Shown: positions 586 to 11,563 of the stretch, one piece after another | Layout of the letters: every line of letters begins with the position of its first letter | Numbering within the stretch: position 1 is the stretch's first letter | Source of the DNA: Cyclostephanos tholiformis | Lineage: Eukaryota > Bacillariophyta > Thalassiosirophyceae > Thalassiosirales > Thalassiosiraceae | Assembly: GCA_036939975.1 (NCBI GenBank) | Contig: JALLPB010001037.1 | Location: forward strand, 1-11,563 | Length of the DNA: 11,563 nucleotides | Direction of reading: 5' to 3' | Program-made: the position numbers and the translations under genes | Notes under the pieces: model-generated | Databases searched by the model: none | Told to the model about the DNA's origin: nothing | Seen by the model: the letters and a program-made list of their open reading frames with translations, nothing else

Positions 586-1360
586 TCATATCCACTCGCA
601 CTTTTGTTCCAATGGCATTGTGAGGAGTGAGTGAGGGTCAATGTCATCTGCTAGGTGTACACCTTGGTGGGCAAATACTGTGTAGCGGTCGGTGCAGTAC
701 CAGGTAATAGTGGACATTAGTTTGTCACCATTGTCTTGGGTACACATATTGACTGTGCGATGGAGTAATGTGTTCATGTTGGCCCAAAGTGGCTCAAAAC
801 ATTCCATCCAGATCAGGTGTTGGAGCTTGTTCATGACCCTTGGGGGTGTTGGCTAGGGTGTATTGTGTACTTCCACTGTTTTGTGAGGAGACCACGTGCC
901 ATCATGTTTATCCCAATCCTTTGCTGGTGCTTAATTGCTTTGCTTATCTGGAATTACATTTTTGATCTATTCCTTGTCCTAGTCCCATATGGTTGGTGAG
1001 TTTTTGTGTTATTACGTTTAGTACGTCCTTTGGTATCCATAGTGTGATGCCTTTAATCTTCATTTGTGCTAGCACTCTCTGCCGCTGGTCTATTATTGTT
1101 GGGTGGGGGCACTGGAGAAAATGGTCAATTGTCTCATCTGTACAGTTGCATCCAGGGCATTGATTAACTCCTGTGATATGGTGCCTCATGTGTGTAACTG
1201 GGAGCCATCTGTGGATTATTTTGCATGTTTGCATTCGTTTTGTGTGTGAAAGTTGTTGTCTTATGGTTTTGATTGATGGCCAGTAGATGTCTCTCCTGAA
1301 TACTCTAGTGTCCCAGTCGTATTTTGATTTAGGTATTCCTCCATTGGTTTGGTACTCCAT
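586..1360 (-). pseudogene. LINE ORF2 C-terminal region with Cys/His cluster (pseudogene part)
   Basis: Frame 1360-944 gives 138 codons downstream of RNase H. It contains the block WLP...H followed by a cluster of form C-x2-C...H-x3-C (CPGC at residues about 68-71, then HFLQC). This Cys/His block follows the RNase H domain in related algal LINEs and probably binds zinc. After a break, 834-586 gives a second 82-codon piece containing CFEPLW and a final EQKCEW block, which resembles the end of the polyprotein in that family. The stretch between (943-835) keeps family-like residues in another frame, so at least one frameshift separates the two pieces. The function of this C-terminal part is not known to me. 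Confidence 0.7.
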
Positions 1361-2061
1361 GCTTTGTAGAGCTCGACTTTATAATGTGAAGTGATCCAAG
1401 TGTTGTCTATTTTGAGCATTGCTTGTGATCCCTCATATGTTGGAGTCAGTATTGGTGAGAGTGGAGGGAGGGCTCCTTTATTGTTAAGGACAAGTTGTAA
1501 TGTGGTTGTGGCAATTTCATTACAGGCTATATTTATCAGTACATCATCTAGTGTTGTGTTCTGGGGTGGTTGGTGATTGGTGTCGGTTTTGCATTTCATT
1601 GTGTCCTGGTGCCCGTATACATGTTGTATTCTTGATTTGTATGGGTGTCTGTTTTTGAGGTGTTGGATTGCAAGTATTATATCTGCTACCGCCTTTAGCA
1701 TCCCACTGGGGTCCCGTATTGGATCATTTGAGTCTTTGACTGCTTGCATGTTGTTGCAACACTGGTCGACCATTTTGGGGGTCATGTTGTGGTAGTCTAG
1801 GTGGTGTAGTGCATGGAATATCTCCTCAAGATCAATCTGGTGTGATGTGTGCAAGTTGATGTTTTCCATCAAGAAAGTTGCGCACAGGAATGATTGGTTG
1901 TTTGTTGATATGATCCATGCTGCTGTTGCTACTTGGTCATGGAGGTGGAGTGATCCATCACTTCCCAGTATGAGGTTTTCCATGTATGGATTGGTAAGAG
2001 TGTTGTTGATGAGGTGGCCTGGTGGTGGGATATCATTGCTTATAGTGAGGGATAGGTTCAT
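1261..2061 (-). pseudogene. LINE ORF2 RNase H domain (inactivated)
   Basis: A 266-codon open stretch carries an RNase H fold, which would remove RNA from the RNA-DNA hybrid during reverse transcription. Visible landmarks are SDGS with the first catalytic Asp at residue 35; a DLEEIFHAL helix with the second acidic residue at about 79-80; CCNNMQAV at 101-108, where the family normally has an Asp; HVYGHQD at 147-153 with the conserved His; and INIACNEIA at 176-184, where the final Asp is expected. At both the third and fourth acidic positions Asn stands where Asp would be, so the enzyme is probably catalytically dead even where its frame is open. The frame overlaps the next C-terminal segment by 100 bases in another frame, which indicates a frameshift near 1300-1360. 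Confidence 0.8.
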
Positions 2062-2154
2062 GGGTCGTTGTGTCCAAATGTTGTACCCAACTTGCTGGCG
2101 CGCAGTTGGGTGGCTGTCTATTTGGATCTCATGGGCTGTTTGGGTAGTGTTGTA

Positions 2155-2835
2155 CTATCCTTTTATTTTTGATGGGGAGAGTATTGACACAACACTTTCT
2201 TCTTGTTGCCTGATATAAAGGTTGGTCTTCAATTTGTAGCATGGGTACCAGATGTTTTGTTTGACCTTGTACCATGGTCCTAGGGGCTTGTCAAGGCTAG
2301 CAATGTAATGGGAGGGTTGGTATTGTGGCGCTAGTGTACAAAAAGTTGATTTAATGCATTTTTGGAAAGCTGCCCAGTAAGGTTTTGGTGGGCGGGGGCT
2401 TAGTGGCGAGAGCAGATTGCTTCCCACCTGCTAGTCTCCATTCATCATTCTGTCTGGGATTATAATGCCTTCTGGGTTTGTAAGATCTGCTATAGTGATG
2501 ACCCTGAGATATATTTGGATGGTGTTGGCTTTCTTGAGGGTGCTTGTGGTGATCCCAGGGATCCAGGTGAATTTTTCCATTAGTGATGTGCCCTCTCTTT
2601 GTAAAGGGGGACTCCATCCTTTTTCTATCCACATGGAGCCGTTTATTTCTAAGAGGCATCCCCATACCAATAGTAAAAAACTATTGTCGATGTATCAGAT
2701 CGGAGTGTTTGTACATTGTAAGATGGGTGAGGTAAGTCCAGAGATCAGTTGTATGTGGTTGAGGGTGACTAGCATGTCATTTGCTACTGTCTTATCCCAT
2801 TTGAATTGTTTGAGTATGTATGGTATTTGGGGAAA
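2155..2835 (-). pseudogene. LINE ORF2 connection region between RT and RNase H
   Basis: Three pieces in shifting frames make up this part: about 2670-2431 (includes WIEKGWSPPL and IQIYLRVITIADLTNPEG), 2427-2155 (includes SPRPPKPYWAAFQKCI and LGPWYKV) and a poorer stretch at 2835-2671. The order of blocks, YL.V..IADLTN..G, then P....W..F....., then L..PLG.W, then LY, resembles the spacer between thumb and RNase H in diatom-type LINEs. The overlapping frames at 2351-2665 show at least one indel. No catalytic residues are expected here, and it is identified only by position and general resemblance. Confidence 0.6.
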
Positions 2836-3480
2836 TTACATCCCTCCCATCAATGCTGGCCTGTATAGTACTGCACTGGGGAGGTGTTGGTTGAATTGCA
2901 TTGGTGGGAGGAACATCATTCTGACTAGTGTGTTGATTTGATCAGCTTGTTTTTGCATGAAACTTGTGAGGTGGAGTGGGTAGTGGAGTTTGGGCACTAA
3001 CCGCTGGTACATGGTCTTGGAGGCTTCTTGCTCCAATAGGTTTGCTATGGTAATGTTGTTGCATATTGTTCTGGTCAAGTTGTACGTATGTTTGTGTTGG
3101 TGTTGCTGGTCCCCACTTGAGCATAAGTTGAAACCAAGGCCTATGTTTGGTTCATTGGTTGGGCCAAATCTTATTTCTGTAGGCGCACCTGTCCAGTCTT
3201 GGATGCAAAGTTTATGTGTCGTGTATGTTTGTTGTAGTTTCCTTATGGATCCTTTTTCATCCCAAGATATCATCTGCCATTTTGTTTTATGGTATGCCAG
3301 TGATCCCCCTGTGAGGTTGTTGACATCATTCCAACCCTGTGCACTTTTGTTCATCTTCTCCGTGGCCTCTTGTGTTGGGTCCTTTGATTCATGGTTGGCT
3401 GAGACATGTCCATTGGCAAAATTGACATCATCAACATATGTAATGTTGTGGTGGGTGATTTGTTGCTGTGCTTTCCAGGG
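2836..3480 (-). pseudogene. LINE reverse transcriptase: palm motif C (YVDD) and thumb region
   Basis: One open frame begins just after a TAA near 3480 and runs to 2836. It carries the reverse transcriptase active-site box TYVDDVNFANG, with YVDD encoded at 3427-3438. Downstream, GGSLAYHKTKWQMISW matches the motif D/E area. The block IGLGFNLCSSGDQ and the late segment FNQHLPSAVLYRPALMGG correspond to post-palm blocks conserved in this LINE family, where LG....P.G.Q and P..V...P...GG are typical. The two catalytic aspartates of motif C are intact. The part upstream of YVDD continues in a different frame (3634-3431), so a frameshift separates motif B from motif C. Confidence 0.85.
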
Positions 3481-4275
3481 TTAGTCCTGGTGTGTATGAC
3501 TTGTGGGCCTGGATTGCATCATTGCTCAACATCAAGTATAGTACATGTGTATCTGCGATCCCCTGTATTTCCCAATCTAGTGTAGGTTCACTGTCAATCT
3601 GGCGGTATGTACCTTTGGTGATTCCCAGGTCCATTTTAATGGCATGTTGTCTTTAACCAGTGTTCTCATTGTGAGTATGCCCTTTGATATTCCTGCTTTT
3701 TGTGCATATATGTTTGAGTTTTGTCAGTATATCCAGTCAAAACAGTTTTCTTGTCATATTGAGTCATGGCTATGGTTCTCATGCCTGCTTGTGCTGTTTC
3801 CATAGTAAGTAATTTGAGGATGGCTGCATCTATTGACTGTTTAGTGCATTGTGATCCATGTTGTTTGTCTGTTGGGTGTGTCTTCTCAAAATTCTTTTGT
3901 CCTAGGTGGCCAATAAAGTAACTGAGTGCCGTGCTAAACTCAGGACACACCAGTCCTATTATTCTTAGCATGTGTATGTTCCTCATGCCAGGTTTTTCTC
4001 TAGCATGACATCAATCACATTCATCCATCTGGTATTTGCAAAGCTGTAGATGAATGGGAGGCTGACCAGAGAACATAAGAAACTGAGAGGTGGTCATTTT
4101 TTGCCACTGCCTTCCATACCATGTAGTTTGTACTGTGGGGGTTGCTTGAGACTCCTTCTTTCTTATGTCGGAACATTTGTTGGAATTCCTCCTTAGATAA
4201 GGAGCCTAACACCACTGGTAGTGATTTTTCTGTGTCATTTTTTGTGACTGCTTTAATCCAGGCTGCTATTGGTGG
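3431..4275 (-). pseudogene. LINE reverse transcriptase: fingers and palm motifs A-B (frameshifted)
   Basis: Read right to left, 4275-4021 gives LGSLSKEEFQQMFRHKKEGV and NYMVWKAVA, the finger block seen in diatom-type LINEs. 4020-3970 reads NVIDVMLEK, then after a shift NIHMLRIIGL. 3986-3666 gives IDAAILKLLTMETAQAGM followed by motif A. In the current frame motif A is disrupted, but the neighbouring frame reads CFDWIY (CFDW at 3733-3744), the family's CFDR-type box with the first catalytic Asp. 3634-3431 gives QGIADTHVLYLMLSNDAIQAH, the motif B region (QG....). At least four frameshifts are needed to join these pieces, so no functional enzyme can be made. The identification rests on motif order and spacing and is strong when taken with YVDD downstream. 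Confidence 0.8.
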
Positions 4276-5143
4276 GGGGCCTTGTATTCTGTCGTAAACT
4301 TGCCTTTGAGGAGTGCATCTGTGTGTGCATTTGTTTCCATCATTTGCCTGAATAAGGGCATTGGGTATGAGTTGCTGGTACCACCTTCAATTGTTGTCTG
4401 TTTTAGGTGCCGCCAGTTTTGCTCCAGTAGTAATCTCTCCATTTCTGAGGGTTTAGTGATGTTTTTCCATGTGTGTTGTACAAGACGGGTCTTGCCTTGC
4501 ATACTGTTATTTGTATGCAATCCTTGTTCACTGTTATTGTTACTTGTACTGCATCCTGGGGGAGTACCTTGAGGGTGTGGAGTTTCTTGAACTTGTTGGA
4601 TGTCTCTCCATGGATGGGGGGGTGGGCCTTGAAATTGCCTTGTTCGTTCTGGTATAGTTCATTTTGTTGTCTAGAATAGAACCATTCATATGTAGGTACT
4701 TGGATTGAGTTGAGTGGGCAGTGTATTCTTTTTGTTGCTGTTGTAAGTTTCTTGTTGGTAACTCTCTCGTGAGCTTCCCTGATCATTTGTTTGACTTTGG
4801 TCTCCCAGTCTGGGATGTTCTCCGCCCATGCATGGTCCTGGGCTATTTTGTTCAGCCATTCAATCCTGTTTTCTTTACATGTTTTTTGGGTTTCTCACAT
4901 TTCTTGTCGGAGTTTCGTTACTTCTTTTCTTATCTGTATACTTGGCTTTGACAGCGTGATTTCTGGGTCTATTCCCAATAGCATTGCACGGCATTTTATT
5001 GATGGCATTAGTGGGCTATTTTGGTGTTTACAGTCTAGAATGTGTTTGTGTAGGAGGAGCATTGCTCCTTTTTGGGTGAGTGCTGGGGATTGTTTGTATC
5101 CAAATTTGCATCTTGCCACTTTGAGAGCATGTGAACCTGCCAA
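4266..5143 (-). pseudogene. LINE ORF2 linker between endonuclease and RT
   Basis: From 5143 to 4403 a single frame of about 247 codons is interrupted only by one TGA at 4895-4897. It includes CKFGYKQSPALTQKGAMLLL, IEWLNKIAQ, VPTYEWFYSRQQNELY and LHTLKVLPQDAVQV. A second, overlapping frame at 4520-4266 carries PSEMERLLLEQNWRHLKQT and DALLKGKFTTEY. These blocks and their order resemble the long, basic, partly helical linker before the RT fingers in diatom-type LINEs, for example the E.ERLIL.RN..HL.Q pattern. A frameshift near 4480 joins the two frames. The linker probably helps hold template and enzyme, but no specific activity can be assigned. Confidence 0.75.
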
Positions 5144-5300
5144 TTCGATGAATGTATTGTATATTTGCTGGTATCCTTATATTATCAGGGGTTGGTCCAT
5201 GTTGTTGGAAGGATCGGATGAGTTTATTGACCCGGTCTTTGAAATTGCCCTCTCATGAGGCTTTCACTAAATTGTCTAGAAAGGTCTTAACTTTGTCTGA
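5144..5300 (-). other. LINE ORF2 segment with no open frame
   Basis: This short stretch joins the endonuclease to the linker. I see no frame longer than a few dozen codons and no recognisable motif. It is presumably a decayed part of the same ORF2. Confidence 0.4.
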
Positions 5301-6157
5301 TTAAGTTAGAGTAAATTCCCTGGATTGTGTTGTAATTGGGTGATGTACTATCTCCTGGTGTGCTATTCTGTCAATTAGGTCCATGAATGCATAGACGTGG
5401 TCGGTGTCCAAACCTTTGTGAGTACCTAGGTACCCGATGCTTTTGACTGCTGGGACAAGTGTTGGGTCTATCCATATGTAATCTAGACGCTTTGTTCCCC
5501 ACATGAAAGTCCTGGTTGACTCCTTGAATTTTTGTAGTACATGTTCACTAGGTTTGTTGTGTCTATGAACTCCCGAAGCCCTAAGTCCGGCGTGTTGGGG
5601 TGGTGAGTGTCTCTGTTTGCATCCATCATCAGCATGGGGTGGAAACCTTCATTGTGTTTTGTTGTGATTAAGTGTGCTAAGTTGGTTAGAACTTGCTGTC
5701 TGGGATTTGGCTTTTTCAGTCCTTGTGCATGTAATGCAGTGCATTGCTGTTGATAGGCTGTGAATGCCCCTGCTTTGCTATTTTGGTCTTGGCATACCCG
5801 GTACGCTACTATAATTAGGATTCCCTCATCGTGCTTTCCTCTCATCATTGACCAGGCAAATTGACCCATTGGATCCTGTCCTGTTTTGTTTATTCTGCCA
5901 ACATTATATCCTGTAATTGATAGTAAGCTTCCTCCTGGCTGGTATTTGGTTAGTTGGTCCATTGGGGAAGACACATATATTGTGCGGGCTTGTTGGAATA
6001 TCAACTCCATCATAAAGTCATATTTCCATTTGTTTGTGTGGGTCCAAGGTCTGTTCATTTCGGAAAGTCCCTGGATGTCAGTGCCTATGTTTATCATATT
6101 ATTTATCTCGCTTGCTATCTCTAGTCCACTATCTATACTGGATCCTCTAATGTTTTG
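5301..6157 (-). pseudogene. LINE ORF2 apurinic-type (EEP) endonuclease domain, frameshifted
   Basis: The domain would nick target DNA to prime reverse transcription. It starts at FQNIRG (FQN at about 6151-6159), the equivalent of the N-x-x-G start motif of exonuclease-endonuclease-phosphatase folds. It continues as DIQGLSEMNRPW with the metal-binding Glu, GG at the substrate loop, LMMDANRD (MDANRD at 5609-5626) with the catalytic D-x-N pair, then after a frameshift RLDYIWIDP and finally GLDTDHVYAFMDL, with the D-H pair at 5397-5402. All expected catalytic positions are still recognisable. The main frameshift lies near a short A-run around 5540, between the two open pieces 6097-5483 and 5504-5301. 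The upstream edge was separated from the rest of the LINE by the nested transposon. Confidence 0.85.
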
Positions 6158-6169
6158 GAAACCAAATCA

Positions 6170-6173
6170 TATA
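6170..6173. repeat. Target-site duplication, left copy (TATA)
   Basis: TATA directly precedes the left terminal inverted repeat and is matched by TATA directly after the right one. Because the sequence is a self-complementary AT run, the exact length (2 or 4 bp) is not fully certain. Confidence 0.6.
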
Positions 6174-6286
6174 TGTTAATCCCCGATTTGGCACAATAAC
6201 CATCTCTAAATGGGGACTCCCCATTTTGGAATTTTCAAGTATCCCTACCCATAACCATATGGAGATTCCCATTTTGAAGTGGGGAC
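6174..6286 (+). repeat. Left terminal inverted repeat
   Basis: It begins TGTTAATCCCCGATTTGG and ends near ATTTTGAAGTGGGGAC. It pairs with the reverse complement of 7975-8088, including the 18-base perfect block CTACCCATAACCATATG. Most differences between the two copies are transitions, which indicates an old insertion. Confidence 0.85.
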
Positions 6287-6446
6287 CCCCAATTAGAATG
6301 ATTCCAAATTGTGGAGTCATTGCCCAAAGTCCCAAATTGGAATGGCCCCCATTTCAGAATGGGTTAGTGACTGAGCTGGCCCAATTCCAAAATGAGGATC
6401 CATTTTGATATGGTGATCCCCTTGAATCAGGGATCCTTTTCTTAGC
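6287..6446. repeat. Subterminal degenerate palindromic repeats
   Basis: Several imperfect copies of a CCCATTTTGAAATGGG-like motif occur in both orientations between the left inverted repeat and the regular 82-bp array, with GATCC centres. They look like diverged units of the same array. No coding sequence is seen. Confidence 0.55.
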
Positions 6447-6692
6447 AATCCCCATTTTTAAATGGGGATCCCCATTTTGGTTTTCGAATTGGGGATTCCC
6501 ATTTCAAAATGGGTACATGGCCATTTGCAATCCCTGTTTTGGGATGGGGATAACCATTTTGGTTTTCAATTCGGGGATCCCCATTTCAAAATGGGTACCT
6601 GATCATATTAGATCCCTGATTCGAAACAGGAATTCCTATTTTGGTTTCCAATCTGGGTATGCCCATTTTGATTTGGGGATCTCCATTTTAAT
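6447..6692. repeat. 82-bp tandem array (three units) of palindromic motifs
   Basis: Units start at 6447, 6529 and 6611, with a spacing of exactly 82 bp. Each reads in outline AATCCC..TTT..GGGGAT, then CCATTTTGGTTT, then CCCATTTCAAAATGGGTA. The first unit contains the perfect 18-bp palindrome AAATGGGGATCCCCATTT at 6460-6477. The third unit is the most diverged. The motif ATGGGGA/TCCCCAT is also present in the terminal inverted repeats, so the array probably grew from terminal sequence. Confidence 0.8.
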
Positions 6693-7233
6693 ATAGGGAT
6701 GCATTTGATTGGGACCCATCAGTGATGATATTATTCACACCTGCATGTGGCTTTCTATGATTTAAGATGCCAATGCATTGGGGGTGCACATCGGTAAACA
6801 TCTTGCAGACATCTCTCATCACATATTCATGCATGTCTCTCACATGGAAGAAAAACATAATGCCCTTGCAATGATCCTCTTTATGAATCCTCCAGAGGTC
6901 AATAAACAGTCTCTCTGCATAGCTTGGCTGCTGGAGACTGGACAACGCCATTGCAGTTACATCTATTGCCCCATACTTTGTTGGACAAAGTACTAAAACA
7001 GCACTTTTGACACCAACAGGAAATACATGATACTTCCTCGCCCACATGTAAGCATTTGTGTTGCCCGCTAAGAAGGCCTGCCTGCAGTCTCCGCCTTCTT
7101 TAAGGGAGCAGAGAAATTTGACCCACTCTTCATAATTAGTCTTTGTCATGAATATGGATGTGTACTCCTTCTTGGCACACCACTTCTTAAGTAGAAGACA
7201 TTCACATGGCAGATCTAACTGCCATCCAACTCG
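6688..7233 (-). pseudogene. Truncated KRBA2/Ginger-like integrase: zinc-binding domain without catalytic core
   Basis: The open frame starts after a TGA at 7234 and includes PCECLLLKKWCAKKEYTSIF before the Met at 7149, so it is longer than its first ATG suggests. Counting from that Met (153 residues), residues about 35-50 (MWARKYHVFPVG) and 80-130 form the region I recognise. The blocks are LFIDLWRIHKEDHCKG, a VRDMH helix, VCKMFTD and HPQCIG. This is the H-x3-H...C-x2-C integrase zinc-binding domain, with H89 and H93 present and the first Cys of the CPxC pair replaced by His (H122, C125). RKPHAGVNNIITDG follows, which in KRBA2-like proteins leads straight into the RNase H-like DDE core. Here it ends in an unrelated tail and a stop at 6688, where the repeat array begins. 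The catalytic core is therefore deleted. The domain normally helps an integrase dimerise and bind DNA. Confidence 0.7.
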
Positions 7234-7239
7234 TCAAGC

Positions 7240-7585
7240 CCCTCAATACTACAATCAATGAATGGGTCAGGATCCTTGCTCTCACTATCTCCGGTCAATG
7301 CTTCCTCATCATTGGGCCATGACTCATTATTGGCATTTCCTTTGTTTGACAACAGGCTTCACTAGGTGGCTCCTCACCAATGAATAACAACTCCTCCTGG
7401 TCACTGATCTGAGGACTCGCCAACAAATCTTTGCTAAAAGTGTCATCTACACATGCAAGGTGAGGCATCAAACCTGCACCTGGGGAGACACTGATGTCAC
7501 CACTGACACAACTCAAAGGGTGGTCTGTTTCCTTTCCCGTTGATTGTTCAGGTGAGTACCCTCTCTTGCGACCACTCTTAGTCAT
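7240..7585 (-). pseudogene. Upstream part of the integrase gene or separate ORF, frameshifted
   Basis: The frame 7585-7295 starts MTKSGRKRGYSPEQ, a basic stretch that could act as a nuclear signal, and continues as an acidic and serine-rich segment without a domain I know. Near 7340 the adjacent frame takes over with SWPNDEEALTGDSESKDPDP and IEGLDELDG before a stop, after which the integrase frame begins at 7233. The pieces most simply form one gene broken by two small indels, with a disordered acidic N-terminal region before the integrase domain. Introns or a separate small gene cannot be excluded. It lies on the same strand directly upstream of the integrase fragment. Confidence 0.45.
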
Positions 7586-7642
7586 GTCAAATTGGCAAAA
7601 TTGATATAGGGACCCTATTTTGAATCGGGGAGTGAATGAATA

Positions 7643-7909
7643 CTATGCCAGGCAGTGAAAAAAGAATTCATTGTTGTGAGGATGGTGACTTGCAACATCA
7701 AGACACACTCCCAAATTGCGATGCATTGGAAAGGGAGGCCAACTTGTTGGATAAGGGATAGGAGGTGAGAGAGCAGGCATAAATTTTTGTGACAGGGGCT
7801 TCTCCTCAGCCTGAATTTTTGGTGATAGGGGTGAGTGGCTCAGCATCAGATGGGGGGTGGAAGGTGAGTGGCTCAGCGTTGGGTGGGGGGGTGGGAGAGA
7901 ATTGGCCAA
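7643..7909 (-). CDS. Proline/serine-rich open frame inside the nested transposon, unknown
   Basis: An 88-codon frame beginning MANSLPPPHPTLSHSP is rich in Pro, Ser and His and contains a repeated LSHSP block, which comes from a 33-bp DNA repeat. I do not recognise a domain. It lies on the same strand as the integrase fragment and upstream of it, so it could be the 5' exon or leader peptide of that gene. It could equally be a chance frame over low-complexity DNA. Low confidence that it is a real gene. Confidence 0.2.
   Translation of the reverse strand: MANSLPPPHPTLSHSPSTPHLMLSHSPLSPKIQAEEKPLSQKFMPALSPPIPYPTSWPPFPMHRNLGVCLDVASHHPHNNEFFFHCLA
7831..7877. repeat. Short direct repeat GTGAGTGGCTCAGC, 33 bp apart
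   Basis: Two identical 14-mers at 7831-7844 and 7864-7877 lie in a G-rich tract of the nested element. Related AATTTTTGGTGA-like strings recur around 7811 and 7920. This appears to be a decayed minisatellite. Confidence 0.7.
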
Positions 7910-7917
7910 ATTTGGCC
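7904..7917. other. Perfect 14-bp palindrome GGCCAAATTTGGCC
   Basis: The 14 bases equal their own reverse complement, and symmetry ends at the next base on each side. It lies about 60 bp inside the right terminal inverted repeat, a position where subterminal transposase-binding sites can occur. A binding role is only a possibility. Confidence 0.6.
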
Positions 7918-7974
7918 TAAATTTTTGGTGAGAGGGAGCTTTTGTGTATGACTCAAGGGCTGGTCAAAAACACA

Positions 7975-8088
7975 GTCCCCATTTCAAAATAGGTAGCCCT
8001 CATATGGTTATGGGTAGAGACACTCAAAAATTCCAAAAAAGGGAGTCCCCGTTTAGAAACGGTCATTGTTCCAAATCAGGGATTAACA
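7975..8088 (-). repeat. Right terminal inverted repeat
   Basis: The reverse complement begins TGTTAATCCCTGATTTGG and follows the left repeat for about 113 bases, with mostly transition differences. The inner end is taken at GTCCCC, where similarity stops. Confidence 0.85.
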
Positions 8089-8092
8089 TATA
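8089..8092. repeat. Target-site duplication, right copy (TATA)
   Basis: TATA follows the right inverted repeat directly. Removing the element and one TATA copy joins LINE sequence in which ORF1 runs into the first codons of the endonuclease domain. Confidence 0.6.
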
Positions 8093-8099
8093 TCCATTG

Positions 8100-8560
8100 T
8101 TATGGTGCCATTTCTGGAGTTGGTCTCCTGCTGGTGGTATGTTTGTTCTGTCATTCTGTGTTGGTTGATCATAGTGGTATAATTGTGCTTGGTGCCATGT
8201 GTCTTTTGTCGTCCTTTTCCATGCTTTTGTGCATAGTAATCTGTTGTTATATTTAGTCTAGTGCTTTTACTTCAGCCATTTAGGCTCAGTCTCTTGGCAA
8301 GGGAGGTTGGTGACTGTAGCTGCTGGCTCTTTAGTCAGTTTGGGGGCTGTTCACTTTGAGGTTGCCTTTGTCCACCCCTCTTTATGGGTGTCTAACTCTG
8401 TGATGCTCATCTTGTTATCCATGAGCTTCCCATCTTGGTCCATTGCGGTTTCAGATATTTCTGTCATGTCACGGTTGATGACTCCATTGGGTCTCATAAT
8501 CCAGTGTAGCTTATCATTGTCATCATAGTCGTCATCTTCATCAGTAATGCTTTCTTAGTA
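8100..8560 (-). pseudogene. LINE ORF1 C-terminal acidic tail
   Basis: In the frame of the second cysteine cluster, this part reads SITDEDDDYDDNDKLHWIM and then a mixed charged segment to a TGA at 8351-8353. It continues to PPAGDQLQKW at the nested insertion, broken only by further stops. After conceptual removal of the insert, the frame would end at a TAG at 6148-6150. An ATG for ORF2 would overlap it in the +1 frame a few codons before the endonuclease start motif. I do not recognise a domain; the acidic run suggests a disordered tail. Confidence 0.45.
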
Positions 8561-8587
8561 CGTGCTGCTGTTTTTGCTATTGTTGCT

Positions 8588-8689
8588 GCAATTTTGCATG
8601 AGGGACTTGCATCTGCATTTGATGCATATTATTTGTTTGCCTTATGTTCTTGCACATCTGGGGCAAATGTACTGGTTGCATTCAAAGCA
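8588..8689 (-). pseudogene. LINE ORF1 second cysteine cluster (RING/B-box-like)
   Basis: The frame reads TCFECNQYICPRCART, a stop (TAA at 8642-8644), then GKQIICIKCRCKSLMQNC. The spacing is C-x2-C-x4-C-x2-C, then about nine residues, then C-x2-C-x1-C-x6-C, compatible with one or two bound zinc ions. It follows the PHD-like finger after a frameshift. It may bind nucleic acid or partner proteins in the retrotransposon particle, but I cannot name the exact family. Confidence 0.55.
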
Positions 8690-8856
8690 TGTCTCGAATT
8701 CAGCATCGTGTGGTAGTGACATTTTTCATGTGTTACATATTGCTTCATCTAATCAGTCTCAGTGTATTCCTTCAAGGCCAGTTCCTTTGGTGAGAGTGTA
8801 TTGCATTTGGTGTGGTGTATCATCATGTGGTTGCTGGATTGTTGGATTTGTAGCGT

Positions 8857-8940
8857 GCATCTGCATCATGAACATATTGTGTTGTTGTTGAATATTACTG
8901 TGCATTTTTCATGGATGTTGTAGAAGCACTCTGTGCAGTG
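8857..8940 (-). pseudogene. LINE ORF1 PHD-like zinc finger
   Basis: The frame reads HCTECFYNIHEKCTVIF, then ICS, a stop (TGA at 8866-8868), and CRC. The ligand order C-x2-C...H-x2-C...C-x2-C is the second half of a PHD or related cross-brace finger. PHD-type fingers are known in ORF1 of some CR1-like LINEs, so the location makes sense. The ligand codons survive although the frame is broken on both sides. Confidence 0.55.
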
Positions 8941-9655
8941 TGTGTATTTGCTTGTCCTGGTGATTCTCCTTGTAATGGTGTTGTTCTTGATCACATTTTA
9001 GTTTTTGGCTTTTAGGTGAGAGTGTCGCCTCTCGACGGATGTATTCATCATATATGCCCACTTCTACCTCCGCCCATTTTTCTTGGTTATCCTGGAACTC
9101 TTCATATAGGGAGGCACTGTCAATATAGTCAGGTTTTGAGGCAATGTGGTTTATGATGAATTCAATTTGGTTTGTCATTCGTGCTGCCATTGCCTTGTGG
9201 AGGAGGAGCTCATTACCTACTCCATGAATGCATTTCCCTTAGCTTGTGCAGACTCCGTTGTAGCAGTTTCCGATTTTGGCCATGTTTGCAAATAGAGTGT
9301 TGTATTTTTGTGTGTATTCTAGGTTTGTTTTGTTGATTTGATGTTGGTTTTCATGTTGGGTATTGTGCATGTGCAACTGAAGTCTTGCATCAATATCATC
9401 TACATATGCTTTGCATAACTCACTTGCAGTTGTTATTGATGAGTCTACTCTTGATATGACTGATTCAATTTGTGATGGTAGAGAGCTTGCCATCGCTGAT
9501 GTAGCTCTGCTGTCTTGTAGGAGTTGTGCAATTACTCTTGATTGTAAATTGACCATTGCCTGTAGTGCTTCGATCCAGTCTGTCAGTTGTAATATGGCCA
9601 GAAGGAGCTTGTAAATGCTGTGTTCTGCCTCATTTGGTGTATTCTGTTGGGTCAT
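8909..9655 (-). pseudogene. LINE ORF1 central region, coiled-coil-like
   Basis: A single frame of about 249 codons from 9655 to 8909 is interrupted only by one TAA at 9239-9241. The first part (LLLAILQLTDWIEALQAMV, VIAQLLQDSR, IESVISRVDSSITTASELC) has regularly spaced hydrophobic residues typical of a helical, coiled-coil-forming segment, as in LINE ORF1 proteins that trimerise. The second part (MTNQIEFIINHI, WAEVEVGIYDEYIRREATL) is also helical and ends in a basic, His-rich stretch before the PHD-like finger. The Met at 9655 may not be the true start, since homologous-looking sequence continues upstream in another frame. The role as RNA-binding Gag-like protein is inferred from position. Confidence 0.6.
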
Positions 9656-10308
9656 TGATGCTGTATTTACTGGGTGGGTATATTGCGAGGGTCACAGTAT
9701 CTCTGTTGTATGTGGGGGGAAAGGGGAAAGTTGGGTTCCTTGTAGGGGGTTCCCATGCATATTGCTTTGCAGCAGATATGTCTGCAAGTATTTTCCCTCC
9801 TGAGTAATTCTAGTGTCCGTGTAGCAATTGTGGCATTAGTTTTAGCACTTGGGTCATGTAGTCTAGTAGTGCTTGTTCCCTGTGTTTGGCCGTGAAGAGG
9901 TTGTACATTCCTCTGCTTTCTGACATGCTGATTTTTATTAGTGGTGATGTTGCTTGTGTTCCTTCTGGTGTGGTGTAGCTCCCATTTAGTATTTATTGGA
10001 CTATCATGCTAGGGCTGTTGTTTGTTTTGTCCCCATTAACTATTGCTGTGTATATATCAATTTCGCTGAGTCCTTTGAGGGATATTGATGTGAGGGATCA
10101 CGTGAATAGTGCTTGGTCCTCAATTGCTTGGTCAGTTGTGCTGGTTGGTGGTGTAATTGCAATGGCTCTGTAATTATAGGTATTAGGGAAATCTGTTTTA
10201 CCCTGCTGGTTGTTGATCGTGTGGATTACTTGTGGTATGATTGAGTTGCTCTCGAGTGGTATGGTGATGCACTTTGCAGCATTTTTTTGTGGTGTTTGGT
10301 GAATAGAC
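9656..10308 (-). pseudogene. LINE ORF1 N-terminal region (broken by three stops)
   Basis: One frame can be followed from about 10308 to 9630, starting near IHQTPQKNAAKCITIPLESN and ending near YSINDPTEYTK. It is interrupted only by a TGA near 10099, a TAA near 10000 and a TAG near 9810. The content is rich in Thr, Pro, Asn and Gln, with the segment SMIVQ and MYNLFTAKHREQALLDYMTQ in the middle. I recognise no domain. There is no clear ATG at the upstream end, so the start and the element's 5' end remain uncertain. A frameshift near 9640 joins it to the coiled-coil-like part. Confidence 0.5.
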
Positions 10309-10728
10309 TGTCACCTGAGAAAATATGCCCATGGGGAGGGAGTAACTCTCCTGCCCTTGGAGTGAGAAACATGAATAAACTGGATAGAGAAAACTATGAG
10401 ACTCCGTGGAAGCAATTCTGTCTCTCGTATGTAGAAGATACGATGATGTTCTGCGGAGGGCACGTGCCCAGCATGGGCCTGACACTCAACCGTGGATTTA
10501 GAGGTGAACATCAAAGAGAACCATGGATAATGGCTCGGTGAACCTCCCACAATTACTTTTGACCCTAATATTTACTTAATCTTGACTGAATAGCTGCGGG
10601 CTCACATGAGTCACTTTGGTGGCCATGGCCATTGAATCTACCCCTTAACGTAGGCGTATTGATTTAGTTTATCAGACCCAGAAGCCTCTTCCCGGCTGGC
10701 CTGCTGCAGTGACCTTAGCCGGCTTTTG
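10309..10728. other. Non-coding stretch, possible LTR/leader of the downstream gag element
   Basis: Short frames occur on both strands (for example 10287-10541 plus and 10485-10198 minus), but none has recognisable motifs and they cross the LINE boundary. Base composition changes from TG-rich to balanced around 10310. The position upstream of a gag-like frame suggests an LTR and leader, but with no second LTR in the window the ends cannot be fixed. A 12-bp palindrome TGGCCATGGCCA lies at 10620-10631. Confidence 0.35.
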
Positions 10729-10778
10729 ATGACCAGTGCAAACAACCAGTGCTATGACCAGTGCAAGCAACCAGTGCA
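10729..10778 (+). repeat. 25-bp tandem duplication upstream of gag
   Basis: Two units, 10729-10753 and 10754-10778, read ATGACCAGTGCAA(A/G)CAACCAGTGC plus one base. Each contains two copies of CCAGTGC, giving four in total. The repeat lies in the presumed leader about 60 bases before the gag start. Confidence 0.8.
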
Positions 10779-10835
10779 AAGACCTCAACCATGATTCAAC
10801 CAATTACTCGACCACCTTCCTTTCTCATCATCCCA

Positions 10836-11563
10836 ATGGCACGGACAAGAGAGATCAGGGCCAGACGCTCCAGCCATGTTGCCGCATTGGATGCCCAAGA
10901 AGCCCCACCGCCTCCAGCGGATGACGATGATGATGATGACCTCGATCTCTTCAGTGACGAGGAGAACTAAAGTGATGACGAGGACCCGGCCCTTGACCAC
11001 AGCAACAATCTTGACGCGAACATTTGCAACAACACCATCGCGATGTTCCAGCGAGTCTTTACCTTCAGGGAGGGGGCAGCGACCGCCCTCTTTGATGACC
11101 GACAAATCACGGACTTTGACTCCCTCCATGGAGTGGATGAACTGACTGACATCAACTTCAAGGAGGATATCAAGCCTCTACAAGACCAGAAGGCCTCGGA
11201 AGACAGCCTTGACAAATCCAAGGAGCCTGAGCCCCCCACGATGACATTGACCCCGACCACGGCGGCGGCCTGTTTCACCCAAATGAAGATGTACCTCGCC
11301 AAGTGCAGGGGCAGACTCGGGGTTCCACTTGACTATGTGATCCGCGCACAGCTCAAGGGACCTCACTACGCGCCTGAGGATTGTCCGGAGGACCCGCCAG
11401 CCTTCGGCAAACCTGAGAGCCCATACATGACTATCAATGCTGAGTTGACTGCTTGCGCCGCAATCTTAAGAATCGACCTGACCCATGACCAGCTGTCCCA
11501 AGCGTTGGATGTCCTTGAAGAAAAGGGATCATTTACCCAGACCTTTATTCAAGACTCGGCCAA
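10836..11563 (+). pseudogene. Gag-like protein of an LTR (Ty1/copia-type) retrotransposon, partial, one in-frame stop
   Basis: The frame from ATG 10836 (context CCCAATGGC) gives 242 codons to the window edge, with a single TAA at codon 45 (10968-10970) and no other break. It starts MARTREIRARRSS, then a proline run, an acidic run (residues about 29-37, seven Asp in a row), an Asp/Glu-rich tail around the stop, and a helical region (IAMFQRVFTFREGAATALF, residues 68-86). A second region follows with FTQMKMYLAKCRGRLGVPL, DYVIRAQL and SPYMTINAELTACAAILR. The Y.T.(D/N).EL.A.A.I block and the overall layout resemble Gag of diatom copia-like elements. Gag would form the particle that packages element RNA. 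An upstream in-frame ATG exists at 10761. Codon use is GC-richer and CpG-richer than the LINE, consistent with a different, younger element. Confidence 0.65.

Follow-up and report, generated by a model that had tools for sequence, protein, structure and literature searches.

A non-autonomous transposon copy of probable Ginger2/Tdd type and its integrase-bearing relatives in a likely diatom genome

Introduction

Two kinds of Ginger DNA transposon are distinguished in the defining passages of Bao, Kapitonov and Jurka (2010, PMC2836005). Ginger1 is characterised there by a CCGG target, the GPY/F and YPYY motifs and an OTU or Ulp1 domain, and Ginger2 by an RTATAY target and the lack of both GPY/F and YPYY. 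Ginger2 is listed in the same passages for Dictyostelium and as a fungal vestige. The same authors consider that Ginger elements may descend from the DNA transposons that gave rise to the integrases of LTR retrotransposons, and few non-animal members were known to them. Among diatoms, Ginger is one of 12 superfamilies listed for Cyclotella cryptica in a passage of PMC7466962. Searches of the open-licence literature, to which most subscription papers and Repbase reports do not belong, turned up no diatom Ginger2 element described with its ends and its transposase.

The element described here lies in a window of 11,563 bp, the whole stretch of DNA that was analysed, which is one contig (C1009) of a 25-Mb assembly of 1,566 contigs. 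A preliminary description had read it as a DNA transposon with Ginger-like termini, of a kind best known from animals, so that a stramenopile member could be new. The claim of novelty does not stand in that form, as Ginger2 is known from protists and fungi as well as animals, and one diatom genome already has a Ginger entry. The stretch 6174-8088 is very probably a copy of a Ginger2/Tdd-type transposon that carries an internal deletion and is non-autonomous, and any novelty may lie instead in the lineage to which its relatives belong, which forms a branch apart from the animal proteins and has a long spacer separating the E of the active site from the second D; Ginger2 itself is known.

Results

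Structure of the element and its surroundings

The silicon transporter family is typical of diatoms. A Pfam profile search found a member of this family in the genome at E 4e-206; one of 14 control genomes also gave a match, below the cut-off. The earlier suggestion of an algal genome is thereby supported as likely.

The left terminus reads TGTTAATCCCC from position 6174 and the right terminus reads AGGGATTAACA, with 8088 as its last base. The ends TGTTA...TAACA, the inverted repeats of about 113 bp and the TATA flanks that had been reported were confirmed to the base (Table 1). The two arms of 113 and 114 bp are 84% identical (96/114 columns), and a repeat search recovered the same pair as 6169-6261 and 8001-8093. 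With up to two mismatches allowed, the 14-mer TATATGTTAATCCC occurs at exactly two sites in the window, namely the two ends of the element, where shuffled sequence leads one to expect 0.10. The full target context of this copy is A-TATA-T.

The nesting of the transposon in another element, also part of the preliminary description, is supported, the host being a decayed LINE-like element read from its open reading frames; Pfam gave no significant match on these frames, only zf-RVT at E 0.07. When the transposon and one TATA are removed in silico, the minus-strand frame of the host stays in phase across the joint, where it meets one stop. The phase is also kept by duplications of 1 or 7 bp and by a TTAA reading, which leaves two stops, and phase restoration lends weak support to a TATA duplication. 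A search for an empty site with the joined flanks matched only the window itself in the genome, and a short pattern across the joined site gave 36 genome matches at one or two mismatches, one of them being the window's own right end. Elsewhere in the window, two open frames at 10758-11561 (+) have an acidic, gag-like look; the second runs past the contig end, and neither has a Pfam match.

Table 1. Features of the transposon copy and its host element in the window
Feature	Position	Strand	Evidence
Whole element, non-autonomous copy, 1,915 bp	6174..8088		TGTTA...TAACA ends, terminal inverted repeats, TATA flanks, match to C828
Left terminal inverted repeat, 113 bp	6174..6286	+	Against right arm, 96/114 columns identical, E 4e-33
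Right terminal inverted repeat, 114 bp	7975..8088	-	Alignment with left arm
Left target-site copy TATA; A at 6169	6170..6173		Read in sequence; TATA flanks also at the C246 and C873 end pairs
Right target-site copy TATA; T at 8093	8089..8092		Read in sequence
Transposase remnant, residues 143-303 of P0001; H2C2-type zinc site, first C replaced by H	6715..7194	-	tblastn, 66% identity, E 1.4e-64; translation
N-terminal transposase remnant, other frame	7295..7642	-	By eye, resembles ORF 3386-3646 (-) of L009
Internal-deletion junction, 2-bp CC overlap	6715..6717		C828 matches end at 622 and restart at 2758
Subterminal field of repeated near-palindromic CCCCATTT...AAATGGGG-type motifs	6190..6700		Repeat families D1-D3
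LINE-like retrotransposon, decayed, into which the transposon is inserted; approximate limits	586..10310	-	Inferred from ORFs

Transposase remnant and internal deletion

The integrase zinc-binding domain claimed for this copy is present, but as a remnant in which the first of the two cysteines is a histidine; it aligns with P0001, an 897-residue database protein. No part of a DDE core was matched in the copy by tblastn with P0001, and Pfam searches with single decayed ORFs and with a joined query of 373 residues returned no significant family. Relative to a longer copy on another contig (C828), the window copy lacks about 2.1 kb at the deletion junction; identity between the two copies is 84% along the longest matching stretch and 74% in the left portion. 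The missing segment encodes the DDE core and tail in C828. With core and tail lost and the zinc site damaged, no working enzyme would be expected from the window copy, which makes it a non-autonomous derivative. In itself, it is ordinary debris.

Relatives in the same genome

The query of 373 residues, joined from the broken copy on C101, found 28 transposase matches on 16 contigs, the window included, and three of these matches fall in long frames that stay open for 616, 634 and 898 residues. The copy on C1514 is the only one with all parts, tail included, in a single open frame (898 residues). It also lies above the Pfam cut-off for the integrase core (rve), whereas the match on C631 falls below it and those on C609, C1470 and P0001 far below. 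The product of the 616-residue frame on C609 is 94% identical to P0001.

Several of these copies have readable ends. On C609, TATA followed by TGTTAATCCCC stands 410 bp ahead of the frame, and on C1514 a left end, TATA followed by TGTTGG, stands about 40 bp ahead; neither a right end nor an inverted repeat was found around the complete C1514 frame. The copy on C828 holds residues 94-886 in decayed pieces. On C246, 2,940 bp separate two ends with inverted repeats of 107 and 123 bp (72% identical), and the interior carries remnants of a transposase that align with residues 123-391 and 598-880, the part with the E being absent.

These copies bear on the reading of the locus as a Gypsy integrase gene that lies between two inverted LTRs or in some other chance arrangement. 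Gypsy elements do have TG...CA ends and a homologous integrase, but ends of the same type bound transposase remnants on C246, other end pairs lie 411, 733 and 961 bp apart in the genome, and no reverse transcriptase was noticed among the ORFs and Pfam results of the window copy. Such an arrangement is accordingly highly improbable, and a transposon is the preferred reading. A transposase of another superfamily between such ends, which the preliminary description had named as evidence against its view, was not seen in the copies that were read.

Two further frames were observed in the same genome. One, of 589 residues (L020 2583-4349, contig C1470), encodes a piggyBac-type transposase (DDE_Tnp_1_7, E 7e-33) and lies a short way beyond a Ginger2-type end near 2226, on its outer side. 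The other, of 1,174 residues (L030, contig C1039, 10408-13623), has a different KRBA2-like integrase core, in which the D-E spacing is 37 residues, and may represent a second Ginger2-like lineage.

Ends and target site across copies

In all, 32 ends were compared, taken from flank-blind matches and chosen by eye from longer lists of 55 and 42. They comprise 17 pattern matches, less an internal match in L041 at 1485, plus 16 others. The ends of C246 and C50 were first seen in a search that contained TATA and are counted because the flank-blind search gave both, while the left ends of C101, C859, C1470 and C1514, not given by flank-blind matches, stand outside the 32. TATA adjoins the terminus in 14 of the 32 and RTATA in 12, against a background TATA frequency of 0.0023 in the surrounding sequence. 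At the other 18 ends TATA is absent, and CAAA, TTGG, CATG, TACA and others occur. Since the flank varies, TATA is the target and not part of the element. TGTNR fits 13 of the 17 pattern matches, a count to be read with the search pattern in mind, which itself began TGTTAR.

Six copies have two ends. TATA/TATA flanks the window copy, C246 and C873, the last with its ends 411 bp apart and also open to a 6-bp flank match; the flanks are imperfect in C979 (CATG/CATA) and C1516 (AGTA/TGTA), with three of four positions matching, and in C101 (TATA/TTAC), with two of four. For C873 and C979 the ends alone were read. The comparison with other copies proposed in the preliminary description thus returns the same kind of ends, but a full flank match in only three of the six pairs. 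A 4-bp target duplication is likely; the three imperfect pairs, and the fact that the favoured target TATA is a palindrome, leave it short of proof.

The same ends speak to a TTAA-type element (piggyBac or Kolobok, with TTAA read inside TG-TTAA-TCCCC) or a TA-type element (Tc1/mariner). The window copy does have TTAA at each end, the host frame stays in phase under this reading, and the genome holds the piggyBac transposase noted above. However, TTAG replaces TTAA at both C873 ends and at C48 and C544, and TTGG does so at C101 (right) and C1403. TA is not required either, as bases -1 and -2 vary, and the coding remnant is of integrase type. Both types are therefore very unlikely, and an RTATA-like target outside TG...CA ends is preferred.

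Other repeated patterns came up in these searches. A TTGTTAATTCCTG family, taken up on a pattern match, was dropped; CTAGG precedes all six fetched copies and the end seems to lie further out. Identical 20-mers TGTTAATTCCTGTTTTAGGA occur at seven places (C171, C666, C685, C1067, C1401, C1488 and C1514:29-48), with CTAGGT ahead in the six whose flank was fetched, and may represent some other kind of family that was active in recent times. Inverted pairs of pattern matches spanning 49 bp (TGTTAATCCCCATATGCAT-like) were seen, as matches only, in C184, C320, C651, C1226 and C1429.

Transposase architecture and relationships

In complete relatives, such as C1514 and P0001, an N-terminal part precedes an H2C2 zinc site and an integrase-type DDE core, which are followed by one more C-terminal domain and then by a cysteine-rich tail. 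In an alignment of 22 rows (one protein of this genome, 16 database proteins and five animal ones), H247, H251, C280, C283, D311, D370 and E425 in P0001 numbering are invariant. An integrase core in relatives, which had been proposed as a check, is thus present. The assignment to the KRBA2 type also holds, the relatives being homologous to animal KRBA2-like proteins over the H2C2 site, the DDE core and, in C1514, the tail. The five animal rows are 28-31% identical to P0001.

Structural comparison is consistent with this. The AlphaFold model of P0001 (mean pLDDT 64, pTM 0.36) has predicted strands and helices that follow one another as in an RNase-H-like core. Its Foldseek matches among PDB structures include foamy-virus intasomes at E 1e-11 and, at E 2e-7, Ty3 integrase, with large rmsd, and the alignment profile, animal rows included, matches foamy-virus integrase at E 1.8e-8. 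A scan of IMG/VR gave eight loci at 24-27% identity to the integrase core, with no close relatives found.

Two protein sets were compared. The diatom-type set holds 117 of at least 118 database matches, drawn from 7,997 candidates, its label marking similarity and not source organisms; the comparison set holds 172 KRBA2-like matches, part of them from the 120 matches listed out of 1,175 in one search. The protein set aside from the former, P0114, is KRBA2-like and 33% identical, and carries the 2A-like motif GDVESNPGP near its N-terminus, at residues 29-37. From the second D to the E, all 67 measurable diatom-type proteins have 49-73 residues, whereas all 150 measurable comparison proteins have 35-37 (22 of the 172 were not measurable). 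The copies of this genome agree with the former, with 54 residues in C609, 61 in C1514 and 54 in C1470. The cysteine-rich tail is common to P0001-type proteins and the KRBA2-like proteins of Littorina and Mytilus; by pattern, it appears in 47 of 117 diatom-type and 81 of 172 comparison proteins, many of which are partial.

These sets also bear on a Ginger1 identity. TGTNR ends and the length of the inverted repeats fit Ginger1 and Ginger2 alike. However, GPY/F is found in none of the 67 measurable diatom-type proteins (and in 2 of 150 comparison proteins), while a control detected GPF in two of three Gypsy integrases of this genome. YPYY occurs in none of the 117 diatom-type proteins, many of them partial, and Pfam at E 0.1 found no OTU, Ulp1 or PHD domain in ten proteins, nine of them from the diatom-type set. 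Nor are the flanks CCGG or CCGT/ACGG; they are of TATA type. With an RTATA-type target and without these motifs and domains, the element is assigned to Ginger2/Tdd, and a Ginger1 element has next to no probability. Of the Ginger-like termini first proposed, the cut-and-paste type of element, with inverted repeats and a gypsy-integrase-related transposase, stands; the type narrows to Ginger2/Tdd, given an RTATAY and not a CCGG target.

In a careful tree of 79 rows, 34 diatom-type rows, four from this genome, lie on one side of a branch with support 89/86 and length 0.79, which is present in 90% of 200 bootstrap trees. The tree leaves out own_rve_L030, own_rve_L031 and P0163, which have long branches, and eight near-identical rows of 90; KRBA2-like proteins stand in for TDD-4 and the named Ginger2 transposases, and the root is unsure because the Gypsy outgroup is very distant. 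This branch and the D-E spacing could be taken to indicate a separate superfamily beside Ginger2, sharing target and ends through deeper descent or convergence. Set against this, the architecture, down to the cysteine-rich tail and a GGQG motif, is common to animal KRBA2-like proteins, and the inverted-repeat length and RTATAY target fit Ginger2. A separate superfamily is unlikely; placement within Ginger2/Tdd is preferred.

Subterminal repeats

The left subterminal field is rich in palindromes. Eight of the nine 20-nt copies of repeat family D1 lie inside it, and 6174-6716 contains six imperfect 16-bp palindromes, whereas 60 shuffles of this stretch average 0.52 and never exceed 3. The ends of other families also have a palindrome excess, with other motifs, although several regions are weak or within the shuffle range, such as the window's right end (1 against 0.22) and C1514 (1 and 2 against 0.07 and 0.25). 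The palindromic repeats may be binding sites for the transposase.

Discussion

Most likely, a retroviral-integrase-like enzyme acts on a DNA transposon. The enzyme would bind sites in the long inverted repeats, TG...CA ends would be freed by a presumed excision, and these ends would be joined across a putative 4-bp stagger at RTATAY, which would give rise to the TATA duplication. The window copy would have been mobilised in trans by a relative.

It is an evenly balanced proposal that the diatom elements, together with their relatives in the databases, make up a diverse lineage of their own next to the animal KRBA2-like/Ginger2 elements, marked by an insertion of about 13-37 residues between D and E and by family-specific palindromic subterminal repeats as putative binding sites. 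A diverse Ginger2-type lineage whose host is likely a diatom, and which offers long open frames as well as ends that can be read, provides a wider sample from outside the animals. Its inclusion would test whether the relations among Ginger2, Polinton and Gypsy integrases change, and its D-E insertion raises the question of how so long a spacer is accommodated in an active site of the integrase type. If most of the database relatives are also microalgal, they would constitute a major undescribed branch of Gypsy-integrase-related transposons in the plankton.

Comparison with known systems

Ginger1, as defined in the relevant passages of PMC2836005, shares TG..CA ends and an integrase-type transposase with the element described here, but none of its CCGG target, GPY/F, YPYY, OTU or Ulp1 was seen. 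The Ginger2-like transposase of endogenous nimaviruses in sesarmid crabs, in the passages of PMC10871703 that treat it, is alike in enzyme type and in its (AT/TA)n insertion; unlike the present element, its carrier is a large endogenous virus genome, with an inverted repeat of 46 bp. The Ginger of Cyclotella cryptica has the same superfamily name in a diatom genome, in a passage of PMC7466962 that gives no ends, duplication or transposase.

Ginger2/Tdd, as described in PMC2836005, has TGTNR ends, inverted repeats of about 50-180 bp, an RTATAY target, H2C2 and DDE (found here in the relatives) and neither GPY/F nor YPYY, all in agreement with the present family, where a 4-bp duplication is likely; the differences are the 49-73 residues from the second D to the E and the likely diatom host. 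Animal KRBA2-like proteins (KRAB-A domain-containing protein 2-like; Littorina, Mytilus, crustaceans and insects) share H2C2, DDE, VPxxDR...GVVV, GGQG and the CxC...CH tail with the transposase, yet they lie on a separate branch (89/86) and keep their D-E spacing at 35-37 residues.
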